A stretch of 64,000 bases of DNA from an uncultured Gammaproteobacteria bacterium (lineage in GTDB: Bacteria; Pseudomonadota; Gammaproteobacteria; Pseudomonadales; Pseudohongiellaceae). Location: NCBI GenBank assembly GCA_913054495.1, contig CAJXIY010000005.1, positions 1 to 64,000 of the forward strand, read 5' to 3'. Under the pieces are notes generated by a model that was not told the origin of the DNA, made no database searches, and saw nothing but the letters and a program-made list of their open reading frames with translations. The translations under genes were made by a program, and so were the position numbers. Below are positions 6,227 through 37,147 of this stretch, in pieces (within the stretch, counting starts at the first letter, position 1; the number at the start of each line of letters is the position of its first letter).

Positions 6227-7195
6227 ATGGCCAGACCATTACGTATAGAGTACCCGGATGCTGTCTATCATATTTCCAATTATGGCCTCGACAATCAACG
6301 CGTGTTTCCTTCGGCTAAATATTTTGAGATGTTCCTGGAGAGCCTGGGCGAAACCTGCGCCCGGCTAAACGTTGAAATCCATGCCTATTGCCTTCTCAGA
6401 GGCCAGTATCACCTGCTGGTTAAAACCCCTGAGGCGAATTTGAGCAGATTCATGCGTCAAGTCGATGGTCTGTACACGCAACAATATCAACGGCTACGGC
6501 GTAGCGATGGCTCTCTCTTCCGGGGTCGCTACAAGGCGGTGTTGGTGCAGGCGGACAACTACTTGTTGCCTCTGTCCAGATTTATCCACGCCAAGGTAAA
6601 AGCGTCTGAGCGCAGCAGTTACCCCTGGAGCAGCTACACCTACTTTGCCCGCAAGGCGAAACCCCCGCTCTGGTTCAATCGCGACGCCACCCTCAAGCAG
6701 CTAAAAACCACGGCGGCGAAACGTGCTGCTGCGTACAGGAAATACTGTGCCCAGGATGTCGATGCAGATCTCGCCCATTTTTACGGAAAGAAAAACCTGC
6801 CATCGATAATGGGTGATGACAAATTCCGCAAGGCAGCCCAGAAAAAACGTTCGGCGACGGCGGCGAGGGGAGTCTCCAGGGGGGCCAACGCCAAATGGCG
6901 GCCCTCTTGCAAACAAATCATTAGCGCAGTTGCCAAACAGTACCGGGTTTCCGAATCGAGTATCTATAAGGCGGCTCGCGGTCCCGGCTCCAAGAACGTG
7001 CCTCGATGGGTTGCTATGTACTTATGTCAGGAGCTTTCGGCGGTAACCTTGCAGGCCATCGCCAGGCTATTCAAGCTAAAAAGATACGGCACGGTATCGA
7101 CGACGGTGGGGAAGTTAAAAGTGGAGTTTGAGCACAGCCCGAAAGTGCTGGCAACGACAGAAAAACTGGCAAAGCAACTCAGTAAGGCGAAGTAG
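6227..7195 (+). CDS. Y1_Tnp/RAYT-like protein with degenerate HUH motif and DnaA-domain-IV-like C-terminus
   Basis: A 322-residue protein. Residues 1-140 follow the transposase-17 (Y1_Tnp, REP-associated tyrosine transposase) pattern: MARPLRIEYPDAVYHIS, then HAYCLLRGQYHLLVKT, FMRQVDGLYTQQY and SLFRGRYKAVLV. The catalytic HUH pair, usually NHxH in this family, reads GQYH here, so the first His is Gln60. Residues about 228-300 resemble DnaA domain IV (IISAVAKQYRVSESSIYKA, then VPRWVAMYLCQEL, then a GRDHTTV-like turn reading KRYGTVSTTV). Such fusions are known in the family. It stands alone with a good ribosome site (AAGAGAATAAGAG). Loss of the HUH histidine suggests a DNA-binding or domesticated role, which is inference. 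Confidence 0.8.
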   Translation: MARPLRIEYPDAVYHISNYGLDNQRVFPSAKYFEMFLESLGETCARLNVEIHAYCLLRGQYHLLVKTPEANLSRFMRQVDGLYTQQYQRLRRSDGSLFRGRYKAVLVQADNYLLPLSRFIHAKVKASERSSYPWSSYTYFARKAKPPLWFNRDATLKQLKTTAAKRAAAYRKYCAQDVDADLAHFYGKKNLPSIMGDDKFRKAAQKKRSATAARGVSRGANAKWRPSCKQIISAVAKQYRVSESSIYKAARGPGSKNVPRWVAMYLCQELSAVTLQAIARLFKLKRYGTVSTTVGKLKVEFEHSPKVLATTEKLAKQLSKAK

Positions 7196-34809: not shown

Positions 34810-35430
34810 ATGAACCCCCCTCTGCCCTTCAGTCAGGCCAGCGAGAACAACAAGCGAGTCATTCTTGAGGTTCTGGCGCGACATTTAACCCGGGGTGACT
34901 CGGTGCTGGAGATTGGTGGCGGCAGCGGCCAGCATGCGGTGTTCTTCGCCACCTGTTTCCGTGAGTTGCACTGGCAGTCCTCGGATATTTCGTCCAATGT
35001 CGATAGCCTCAACTTACGCATCAGCGCGGCGCAACTCCCCAATCTTCCCGCTGCCATCTCCCTGGATGTTAATGACCCCGACTGGAGCTGTCCCTGCTGT
35101 AATGTGATATACAGCGCCAACAGCCTGCACATCATGTCCACGGCCTCGGTAGAAAAATTCTTCTCTGGCGCGGGAACAAAGCTTCGAGATAATGGCGTAC
35201 TGTTGGCCTACGGCCCCTTTAAATACGATGGTGCCTTCACCACCGAGAGCAATGCCCACTTCGATCTCTGGTTGAAGGACCGGGATCCCCGCAGTGGCGT
35301 CAGGGATTTTGAATGGGTGAACGATCTGGCGGAGAACGCCGGCTTAACTTTGCTTGAAGACAACGCCATGCCGGCGAACAATCAGTTTCTGGTTTGGAAG
35401 AAAACCAAGTTGGAACACGGAGTTCGGTAA
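34810..35430 (+). CDS. DUF938 family SAM-dependent methyltransferase
   Basis: A 206-residue protein of the DUF938 family. The N-terminus PPLPFSQASENNKRVILEVL and the SAM motif VLEIGGGSGQHAVFFA are diagnostic, and YSANSLHIMS and GPFKYDGAFTTESNAHFD follow. The substrate is unknown. It lies 49 nt after yaaA. Its stop codon overlaps the first bases of the palindromic element beginning at 35429. Confidence 0.92.
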   Translation: MNPPLPFSQASENNKRVILEVLARHLTRGDSVLEIGGGSGQHAVFFATCFRELHWQSSDISSNVDSLNLRISAAQLPNLPAAISLDVNDPDWSCPCCNVIYSANSLHIMSTASVEKFFSGAGTKLRDNGVLLAYGPFKYDGAFTTESNAHFDLWLKDRDPRSGVRDFEWVNDLAENAGLTLLEDNAMPANNQFLVWKKTKLEHGVR

Positions 35431-35968
35431 CGCTTTGTAGAACGCGCTAGGTGAGAGGCCCCTATTGTCTCAGCGGCTTGCACCCCTCCCGGGTTCCCTC
35501 ACTCGGTCGGGAGCCCTGGAAAACGGTCTCCCTCGGTCACTCGGTGCGGCGCCCTAATTGCTGAGTCAATAGGGGCCTCTCACCCATCGCTCGCAGTTCC
35601 CACTTAGCTTAGTGAAACCAGTATCACGGACTTACTCTAGTCTGAAATGAAGCTAATTGAAGCAATGTCGAATACTTAGAGATTCTGCGATGGATCGCCA
35701 AGCGATGTGATGTCATATCCTTCTGCATCAGCAATCAAGGCGCCGCACCGAGGGAGACCGTCCTTTGGGCTCCCGACCGAGTGAGGAGAACATTCTAGCC
35801 AGTATCGTATTCTTGGAAAGATGCACGATTCTTCTCAGATTCGGAGATCTTGCTGGAGGAACCTTCCCGGGGGGGGCAAGCCGCTGAGGCAGAAGGGTAT
35901 GGCAGCGCAGCGCGCCTTCACTGAGACTCCCATAGGGACCTCTCACCCAGCGCGTTCTACAAAGCGTT
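35429..35968. mobile_element. Gene-free palindromic MITE-like element with 37-bp terminal inverted repeats
   Basis: The two ends (35429-35465 and 35932-35968) are inverted copies matching 35 of 37 bases, sharing AACGCTTTGTAGAACGCGCT at the tips. Inside, the left half (35429-35572) is mirrored by a longer right half (about 35717-35968) with matches such as CGGTCTCCCTCGGT and CTCACTCGGTCGGGAGCC. The right half has extra blocks of about 70 nt (35787-35857) and about 35 nt. No convincing ORF or transposase exists. The element fills the gap between the DUF938 gene and the FemAB-like gene. Confidence 0.75.
35450..35584. repeat. Long internal hairpin within the left half of the element
   Basis: A 25-nt arm at 35450-35474 is complementary at 24 of 25 bases to 35560-35584 (core GGTGAGAGGCCCCTATTG). 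Looser pairing continues outwards for another 4 of 6 bases. A third copy of the motif lies in the right end at 35931-35949. The span of 135 nt could be an older, shorter palindromic unit nested in the larger one. Confidence 0.7.
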
Positions 35969-35989: not shown

Positions 35990-37147
35990 TCAACACTCTT
36001 TCTTATAAGGGAGCAGTGCCCTGGCTTGCTTCACGTAGCGTTTGATGTGATCCCGCTCCTCATCCAGAAAATTCCCGATAGCGGCGGCAAAACCTTGATT
36101 GGCTAGCCAGTGATTGGAATAGGTGATGATGGGTTCGAAACCGCGCTGGATTTTGTGCTCGCCCTGGGCGCCGGAATCGAAGGACTTCAGGCCGTGTGCG
36201 ATGCAATAATCCTGGCCCTGGTAATAGCAGGTTTCGAAGTGCAGAAACTGGTGGTCCCTGGCGCTGCCCCAGTAGCGACCGAATAGCTGCTCCCGGCTCT
36301 TGAAGAACAGGGCCGCGGCAATCATCTGCCGGTCTTGTATGGCTGAGACCATGAATACCTGTTCCGGCATGGTGGCTGAGAGGGTTTGAAAGAAATTCTG
36401 GTTGAGATAGCCCTGCATCCCTCTCATCATGTAAGTGCTTTGATAGAAGCGGAAGAAAAGCTGCCACTGCTGTTCATCTATGTCATTGCCTTCGGTGATG
36501 TTGAAGGTAATGCCCTGGGCCGAGACATTTCGTCGTTCTTTTCTGATGGATTTGCGCTTCCGCGAATTGAGGCAATTAAGGAAATCATCGAAACTCGTAT
36601 AGGATTTGTTATACCAGTGAAATTGGCTGGCGATTCGGGAAGAAATTCCAAGCTGGTCAAAATCGTCATGCTCGTCCTCCAGGGGAAATAGTATATGCCA
36701 GGACGAAGCGCCAATAGATTCAGCTTTTTCAATCACCTTGTCACGGATGAGCCTGGTGATTTCTGGCCGTGACGCCGACTCTCTTACGAACAGGCGACTA
36801 CCGACGCTGGGGGTAAAGGGCACCGCGCTAACAAACTTGGGGTAATACTCGTAACCGTGACTTTGATAGGCACTGGCCCAGGACCAGTCGAAAACATATT
36901 CCCCGTATGAATTGGTTTTCAGATAAAGTGGCATGATGGCCGCGAGGGTTTTGCGTTTCCCGGCCAGCGCGTAGACTGCGACATGGTGAGGAGCCCAGCC
37001 CGTAGCCGCAGTAGTACAGCCGGTTTGTTCCAGGGCATGGAGGAATTCATAACGGGTGAAGGGGTTTTCGATGCCGGCTAGTTCATTCCAGCTGACGGCT
37101 CCGATATCGGCGATGGAATCTACAAAATGGATTTCTAGCTTATGCAT
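35990..37147 (-). CDS. FemAB-like GNAT-fold protein (DUF482)
   Basis: A 385-residue protein of the DUF482/FemAB-like family (Pfam PF04339). Visible features are NPFTRYEFLHALEQTGC near the start, and LFGRYWGSARDHQFLHFETCYYQ near the end, with FDSGAQGEHKIQRGFEP as the C-terminal signature. The fold is that of aminoacyl- or acyltransferases, but the substrate is unknown in this family. The gene stands alone, divergent from hexR, and its 3' end abuts the palindromic element. Confidence 0.88.
   Translation of the reverse strand: MHKLEIHFVDSIADIGAVSWNELAGIENPFTRYEFLHALEQTGCTTAATGWAPHHVAVYALAGKRKTLAAIMPLYLKTNSYGEYVFDWSWASAYQSHGYEYYPKFVSAVPFTPSVGSRLFVRESASRPEITRLIRDKVIEKAESIGASSWHILFPLEDEHDDFDQLGISSRIASQFHWYNKSYTSFDDFLNCLNSRKRKSIRKERRNVSAQGITFNITEGNDIDEQQWQLFFRFYQSTYMMRGMQGYLNQNFFQTLSATMPEQVFMVSAIQDRQMIAAALFFKSREQLFGRYWGSARDHQFLHFETCYYQGQDYCIAHGLKSFDSGAQGEHKIQRGFEPIITYSNHWLANQGFAAAIGNFLDEERDHIKRYVKQARALLPYKKEC

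Follow-up and report, generated by a model that had tools for sequence, protein, structure and literature searches.

Paired hairpin repeats resembling oversized REPINs form a dispersed family in aquatic gammaproteobacterial genomes

REPs and REPINs are repeats of 20-50 nt that carry a GTAG or similar tag and are processed as single strands by the RAYT transposase TnpA_REP (PMC3116915, PMC8266576, PMC3733652), with REPINs forming inverted doublets that show compensatory changes in their spacers (PMC3116915). REP dimers are also found inside long palindromes, such as GTAG-15 of Anabaena variabilis and CGTC-1 of Halothiobacillus neapolitanus (PMC3733652). Bacterial repeats of the REP type are short, whereas the family described here is large and structured and has a sequence-conserved core. 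The nearest known kind is the REP/REPIN/BIME type, not the DDE MITE defined by its terminal inverted repeats (TIRs).

The window analyzed is a 64,000-nucleotide stretch of DNA from an uncultured gammaproteobacterium of the Pseudohongiellaceae. The element occupies positions 35429-35968, between a DUF938 gene (34810-35430, + strand) and a FemAB-like gene on the - strand, whose end at 35990 lies 21 bp past the element. The initial annotation had described a palindromic element that lacks coding content and starts inside the DUF938 stop codon. Both points hold: the TAA stop lies at 35428-35430, so the element start overlaps it, and there is no ORF of ≥80 aa within 35429-35968. The 37-bp terminal inverted repeats of that description were also recovered in a repeat search of the window (35429-35465 and 35932-35968; 35 of 37 nt complementary). 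A 20-base stretch of the tip has two sites only in the window at ≤3 mismatches, and 100 shuffles give an expectation of 0. Folded as a single strand of DNA, the element reaches -167 kcal/mol, compared with -82 ± 5 for shuffles (z = -16).

Not visible from the window alone is that each half of the element is a hairpin unit in its own right, both belonging to one family. We aligned 19 units without structure and searched with a covariance model, R1 (160 model positions). R1 matches the window precisely at 35439-35598 (+) and 35694-35918 (-), and also in the reverse reading of the first palindrome. The window element thus has the usual make-up of two facing units, one of type 1 and one of type 2, with a stray tip of type 1 in addition. 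The left half had been described as mirrored in a longer, insertion-bearing right half, and an insertion of ~80 bp is indeed present there. The features are listed below, where G000 is the window's own genome and G077 a close relative (about 91-93% nucleotide identity).

35429-35614, + strand: type-1 hairpin unit (T1), comprising left tip, outer stem, conserved core and right tail GTTCCCACTTAGCTTAGTG; R1 match at 35439-35598 (+), 177 bits, E 4e-40, with the ends extended by copy comparison
35444-35474, + strand: 5' arm of the T1 outer stem, variable among copies and covarying with the 3' arm; 90% complementary to 35560-35590, and pair counts
35475-35559, + strand: conserved T1 core with two apical hairpins (ACCCCTCCCGGGT-type; GGGAG..CTCCC), from conserved columns and pair counts of alignment A1
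35560-35590, + strand: 3' arm of the T1 outer stem, from the repeat search and pair counts
35615-35693, no strand: linker separating the two units, lying between the two R1 matches; its G077 homologue is inverted along with the units
35694-35918, - strand: type-2 hairpin unit (T2) in inverse orientation; R1 match of 79 bits, E 7e-17, with other T2 copies in G000
35787-35866, - strand: ~80-bp alternative apical domain inserted in the T2 core; an 83-nt insertion in the R1 alignment, and G077 comparison
35925-35968, - strand: stray copy of the T1 left tip, source of the 37-bp inverted tips of this copy; the tip is single at the G077 site
6227-7195, + strand: Y1 (IS200-like) transposase-fold gene with a DnaA_C helix-turn-helix (Pfam PF01797, PF08299)

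BLAST of the element against G000 (3.39 Mb, 201 contigs) gave 46 matches at about 14 loci. The flanks are unlike at each copy, which is the pattern that the initial annotation had proposed to look for. Of 58 relatives, G003 (SHZK01), a metagenome genome from Lake Baikal, is the only one with a match by plain DNA similarity. The repeating unit is a hairpin of ~160-190 bp with a long outer stem and a conserved two-hairpin core, and comparison of copies shows fairly conserved ends (AGAACGCGC... and ...GCGCTCGCAGTTCCCAC). The conserved core runs from a CACCCCTCCGGGGT hairpin through CCCTC.CTCGGTCGG and a GGRAG..CTYCC hairpin to CTCGGTCA.TCGGTGC. A search with this core pattern identified true members in Pseudohongiella bin.121, several Gammaproteobacteria MAGs, SAR86 NORP66, a Pseudomonadales MAG and the isolate Mangrovimicrobium sediminis. 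Matches in Azospirillum, Nitrospirillum, Streptomyces, Fimbriiglobus, an actinomycete and one viral contig were dropped on inspection as chance matches.

With 10 candidates per genome scored, R1 places units in at least 34 of 292 relatives, comprising 18 genomes of the window's genus, 10 of g26 (a second genus of the window's family) and 6 of other families. In-depth scans of nine genomes found 13-44 units in eight and 4 in the ninth, including 44 in G003, 33 in G093, 30 in G139, 21 in G119 and 20 in G000. Metagenome assemblies make up nearly the whole genome set, and palindromes misassemble easily. This is a previously unlisted family in aquatic gammaproteobacterial genomes.

The units are arranged in a consistent way. 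Among the 150 best R1 matches in the nine genomes, 31 of 31 neighboring pairs are facing (+ then -), with linkers of 47-282 bp (median 118), and the Mangrovimicrobium copies L111 and L114 show the same facing pairing. Pair ends usually carry two different unit types. In our reading, the full element is two facing units, each a hairpin of ~160-190 bp, across a linker of ~50-280 bp, and solo units are largely remnants. In copies L013, L016, L025, L094 and L115, the ~80-bp alternative apical domain either takes the place of the first core hairpin or enlarges it.

Sorted by gene gap with a simple codon-based gene caller, 49 unit clusters lie in convergent, 34 in co-directional and 7 in divergent gaps; the corresponding counts for element-free gaps of the same loci are 5, 27 and 10. 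The convergent excess matches the REP/BIME habit of occupying gene 3' ends. The units are extragenic, with a predicted ORF containing just 1 of about 105 unit clusters. We sought an autonomous copy, with a transposase between facing units, and recognized none in the ORF lists; where units are spaced 3.6 kb (G076:C9) or 3.9 kb (G139:C13) apart, ordinary-looking genes lie between them.

Comparison among relatives reveals how individual sites have changed. The DUF938/FemAB junction is empty in two distant congeners in which the genes are still adjacent, G021 (~42 bp apart) and G022 (~150 bp apart), as the initial annotation had anticipated for a mobile element; the element is neither single-copy nor present at the same site in all relatives. 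In G077, the same site holds the element reversed, linker included (299-bp inverted match, 91%), with the 37-bp tip occurring once and the ~80-bp apical domain lying within type 1, not type 2. The simplest reading is that the element at the window site inverted in place, with duplication of the tip, and that the apical domain was exchanged, but loss of different parts of a larger inverted cluster or a misoriented assembly may also account for the difference. At one G077 contig end (L278; G077:C113, 15100-15270), a type-2 unit is joined with a type-1 tip and another copy of the DUF938 end (97.8% identity with the main copy). This shows heterogeneity of strains or assembly at the site, and strain mixture, duplication or chimeric assembly may lie behind it. 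A warning follows for metagenome genomes, in which such palindromes may bear local inversions or misassemblies.

The 37-bp tips had been described as terminal inverted repeats of a possibly MITE-like element, and in the window copy they would suit a classical MITE whose DDE transposase recognizes 37-bp terminal inverted repeats. They do not serve as ends of the family, however. The tip is unpaired in the G077 copy at the same site, the sister composite L002 (G000:C119) is without paired 37-bp tips, and two different unit types are usual at pair ends. No target-site duplication was recognized at the five compared sites, where the flanks beside the element are too diverged. The units resemble MITEs in being small, non-coding, dispersed and equipped with inverted repeats, but they have no conserved short TIR with a recognizable target-site duplication, and the "TIRs" of a pair are whole hairpins, often of two types. 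Of the earlier proposal, a multi-copy, non-coding, non-autonomous, inverted composite stands. A TIR-defined DDE MITE does not fit and is highly improbable.

Most sites are common to G000, G077 and G087. At L002 and L009, the insertion is common to these three genomes and one unit has been lost. An apparent inversion at L009 is explained by different units having been lost from a facing pair, and L005 fits likewise. R1 finds no unit at the unit-free sites of L006, L012, L014 and L087, some of which retain small end remnants, and we saw no excised form and no new insertion among the sites compared. When G000 is set against 17 G003 loci, flanks are shared at 1 of 14 G000 loci, and such low site sharing requires past movement. 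At L309 (G077:C206), a separate ~100-bp palindrome (TGTCTGAGTAGACC...GTCTACTCAGACA) adjoins a type-2 unit and is missing from the empty G000 site.

The arms of the hairpin covary extensively. In the structure-free alignment of 19 units, 88% of cells are paired, compared with ~40% once partners are slid, and cells changed on both sides number 106, versus 12 changed on one side. Across 139 units aligned on R1, the outer stem has 86% Watson-Crick cells, with all four types at 22 of 31 pairs. Single-change mismatches comprise 214 A.C versus 33 G.T, and this direction recurs in four lineage groups (p = 3e-5 by a sign test on pairs; cells here are sequences, not independent events). R1 is a top-strand model whose fit would favor G.T, so the bias is not an artefact of the fit. 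A.C on the top strand corresponds to G.T or G.U wobbles on the bottom strand, so the bottom strand is the one constrained; in type 1, this strand has its GTGGGAACTGC start at the linker. The family keeps its stems by compensatory change and reveals the folded strand. Mean identity across families is 69% in the core versus 44% in the stem, and the two core hairpins also show compensatory changes, including in the divergent members L097 and L100.

These data bear on whether the family consists of relics, that is, old and immobile palindromes whose arms are matched by template switching or gene conversion, with neither selection nor an enzyme. The sites mostly common to G000, G077 and G087 would be expected of such relics, and unit loss, apical exchange and inversion are usual palindrome behavior in replication. 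Yet mismatches at columns 26/132 and 30/128 are conserved in many copies, where conversion should erase them, the excess of A.C over G.T requires strand asymmetry, and the little site sharing between G000 and G003 requires past movement. We therefore regard this explanation as unlikely.

A constrained strand could also be transcribed. An RNA read from the top strand is ruled out, as G.T is rarer than A.C. If the units were instead genes for a structured non-coding RNA read off the bottom strand, outward both ways from the linker, and their dispersed duplicates were kept for RNA function, the bias would reflect G-U wobbles in that strand, and a core kept across families as two hairpins with compensatory changes (L097 and L100 too) would be natural. 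Against this, an Rfam search of the window element and eight loci with other copies gave no credible match, and a promoter-like conserved block sought upstream on the linker side was not found. One-sided changes are few overall, the closest relatives freely drop one or both units per site, and placement at gene 3' ends is like that of passive extragenic repeats. We consider an RNA gene family quite unlikely.

Integron attC sites fold from the bottom strand and combine conserved feet with a variable stem. The units share these traits, with an unpaired TCGCA beside a conserved foot, a variable complementary stem and a folded bottom strand, as would an attC-like site acted on by a tyrosine integrase. 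They differ in that gene-cassette arrays were not noticed around the copies, RYYYAAC/GTTRRRY boxes were not seen by eye, and the units have a long conserved core, which attC sites lack. An attC-like recombination site is very improbable.

A link to REPs appears in g26, where a canonical REP head (GTGGGAG.., pointing at the unit) lies ≤110 bp from 18 of 39 units, and on both sides of 8 of the 39, as against 79 of 2926 control windows (2.7%). At 145-600 of locus L229 (G139:C122) lies a compact REP-RAYT module, a ~150-aa Y1 gene with canonical REPs immediately to either side, and these are the same REPs as those of the g26 units. In the window's genus, no canonical REP was found beside units, and the 2 GTGGGAGC sites in 288 kb are both away from units. 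An RTGG tag is frequent solely at the type-1 inner end; the outer end is variable, and GTAG is not conserved there. Y1 genes are present in 32 of 34 carriers versus roughly 62% of other genomes, a comparison confounded by phylogeny and genome size. The 26 Y1 genes examined all lack a unit within about 1.5 kb. The Y1 and DnaA_C gene of the window, 28 kb from the element and also with no unit within about 1.5 kb, is only a candidate for a trans-acting enzyme. Long Y1 proteins (about 320-370 aa) similar to its product occur in most carrier genomes examined.

The units are like REPINs and BIMEs in being extragenic and multi-copy, in forming inverted doublets and compensatory hairpins, and in lying near gene 3' ends (PMC3116915, PMC8266576), as well as in the presence of a Y1 gene in nearly all carriers and the position of many g26 units beside or between canonical REPs. 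They differ in size (~160-190 bp versus 20-50), in their long, conserved core and in pairing as large hairpins, and they are without invariant GTAG-tagged REP ends or an adjoining RAYT. The units thus work like giant REPINs, but their size, tag and RAYT linkage keep us from filing them as REPINs. The REP dimers of long palindromes are similar in being tied to a larger palindrome, whereas the g26 REPs lie outside the unit and the window's genus is without REPs.

Our preferred explanation, to which we give a probability of about one half, is that these are giant REPIN/BIME-like non-autonomous elements that fold as single-stranded DNA and depend for their movement on an enzyme acting in trans, probably a Y1 (RAYT-type) transposase. 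It accommodates the observed copy number, dispersal, paired layout, compensatory arm changes, strand bias, 3'-end context and local rearrangement, and we infer single-stranded DNA as the folded form and a Y1/RAYT enzyme from the REPIN analogy and the g26 link. One strand of a unit, reading outward from the linker with the type-1 start GTGGGAACTGC, would fold into a long hairpin when single-stranded, probably in replication. A trans-acting HUH/Y1 transposase of RAYT type would cut at the hairpin foot, and reinsertion elsewhere would favor gene 3' ends, as proposed for REPINs. The palindromes would then decay by one-unit deletion, apical-domain exchange and, at the window site, apparent in-place inversion. 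Weighing against this explanation are the 26 Y1 genes with no unit nearby, the lack of REPs in the window's genus, the unconserved GTAG, a core more conserved than a passive REPIN spacer requires, and sites that are mostly common to close relatives, with no new insertion or excision.

Possible, though doubtful, is that the repeats make up a class of their own, transposable elements built from paired single-strand hairpins and distributed over several families within one gammaproteobacterial order. The apical core rather than the tips would then be recognized by an enzyme of its own or act as RNA, and REP/RAYT would have joined secondarily in one genus. With its many natural copies, the family lends itself to studies of the recognition and movement of hairpin DNA and of how REP systems recruit other DNA.

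The G003 copies show further local variation. In this genome, type 1 usually faces a third unit type (ACTGTCAGCTCCAACCACTGGCGCC..., with a GGAAAAAGCCCTGTAAAGCGGTCTTTTTCC core), which occurs at L060, L063, L065, L067, L069, L070, L071 and L074. At L073 and L074 (G003:C52 and C56), the cores are broken by another small palindromic repeat with AAAAAAGGGGTCAGACACCTTTT-like sequence. At L061, L063, L065, L066 and L067, 28-bp tandem repeats lie on the outer flank of type-1 units, each repeat consisting of a locus-specific stretch and a copy of the unit tip (GATCGCGCC), as at L065:1660-1774 and L061:1649-1736; the repeat is 41 bp in L064. These tandem repeats look like the product of repeated processing or slippage at the outer end.
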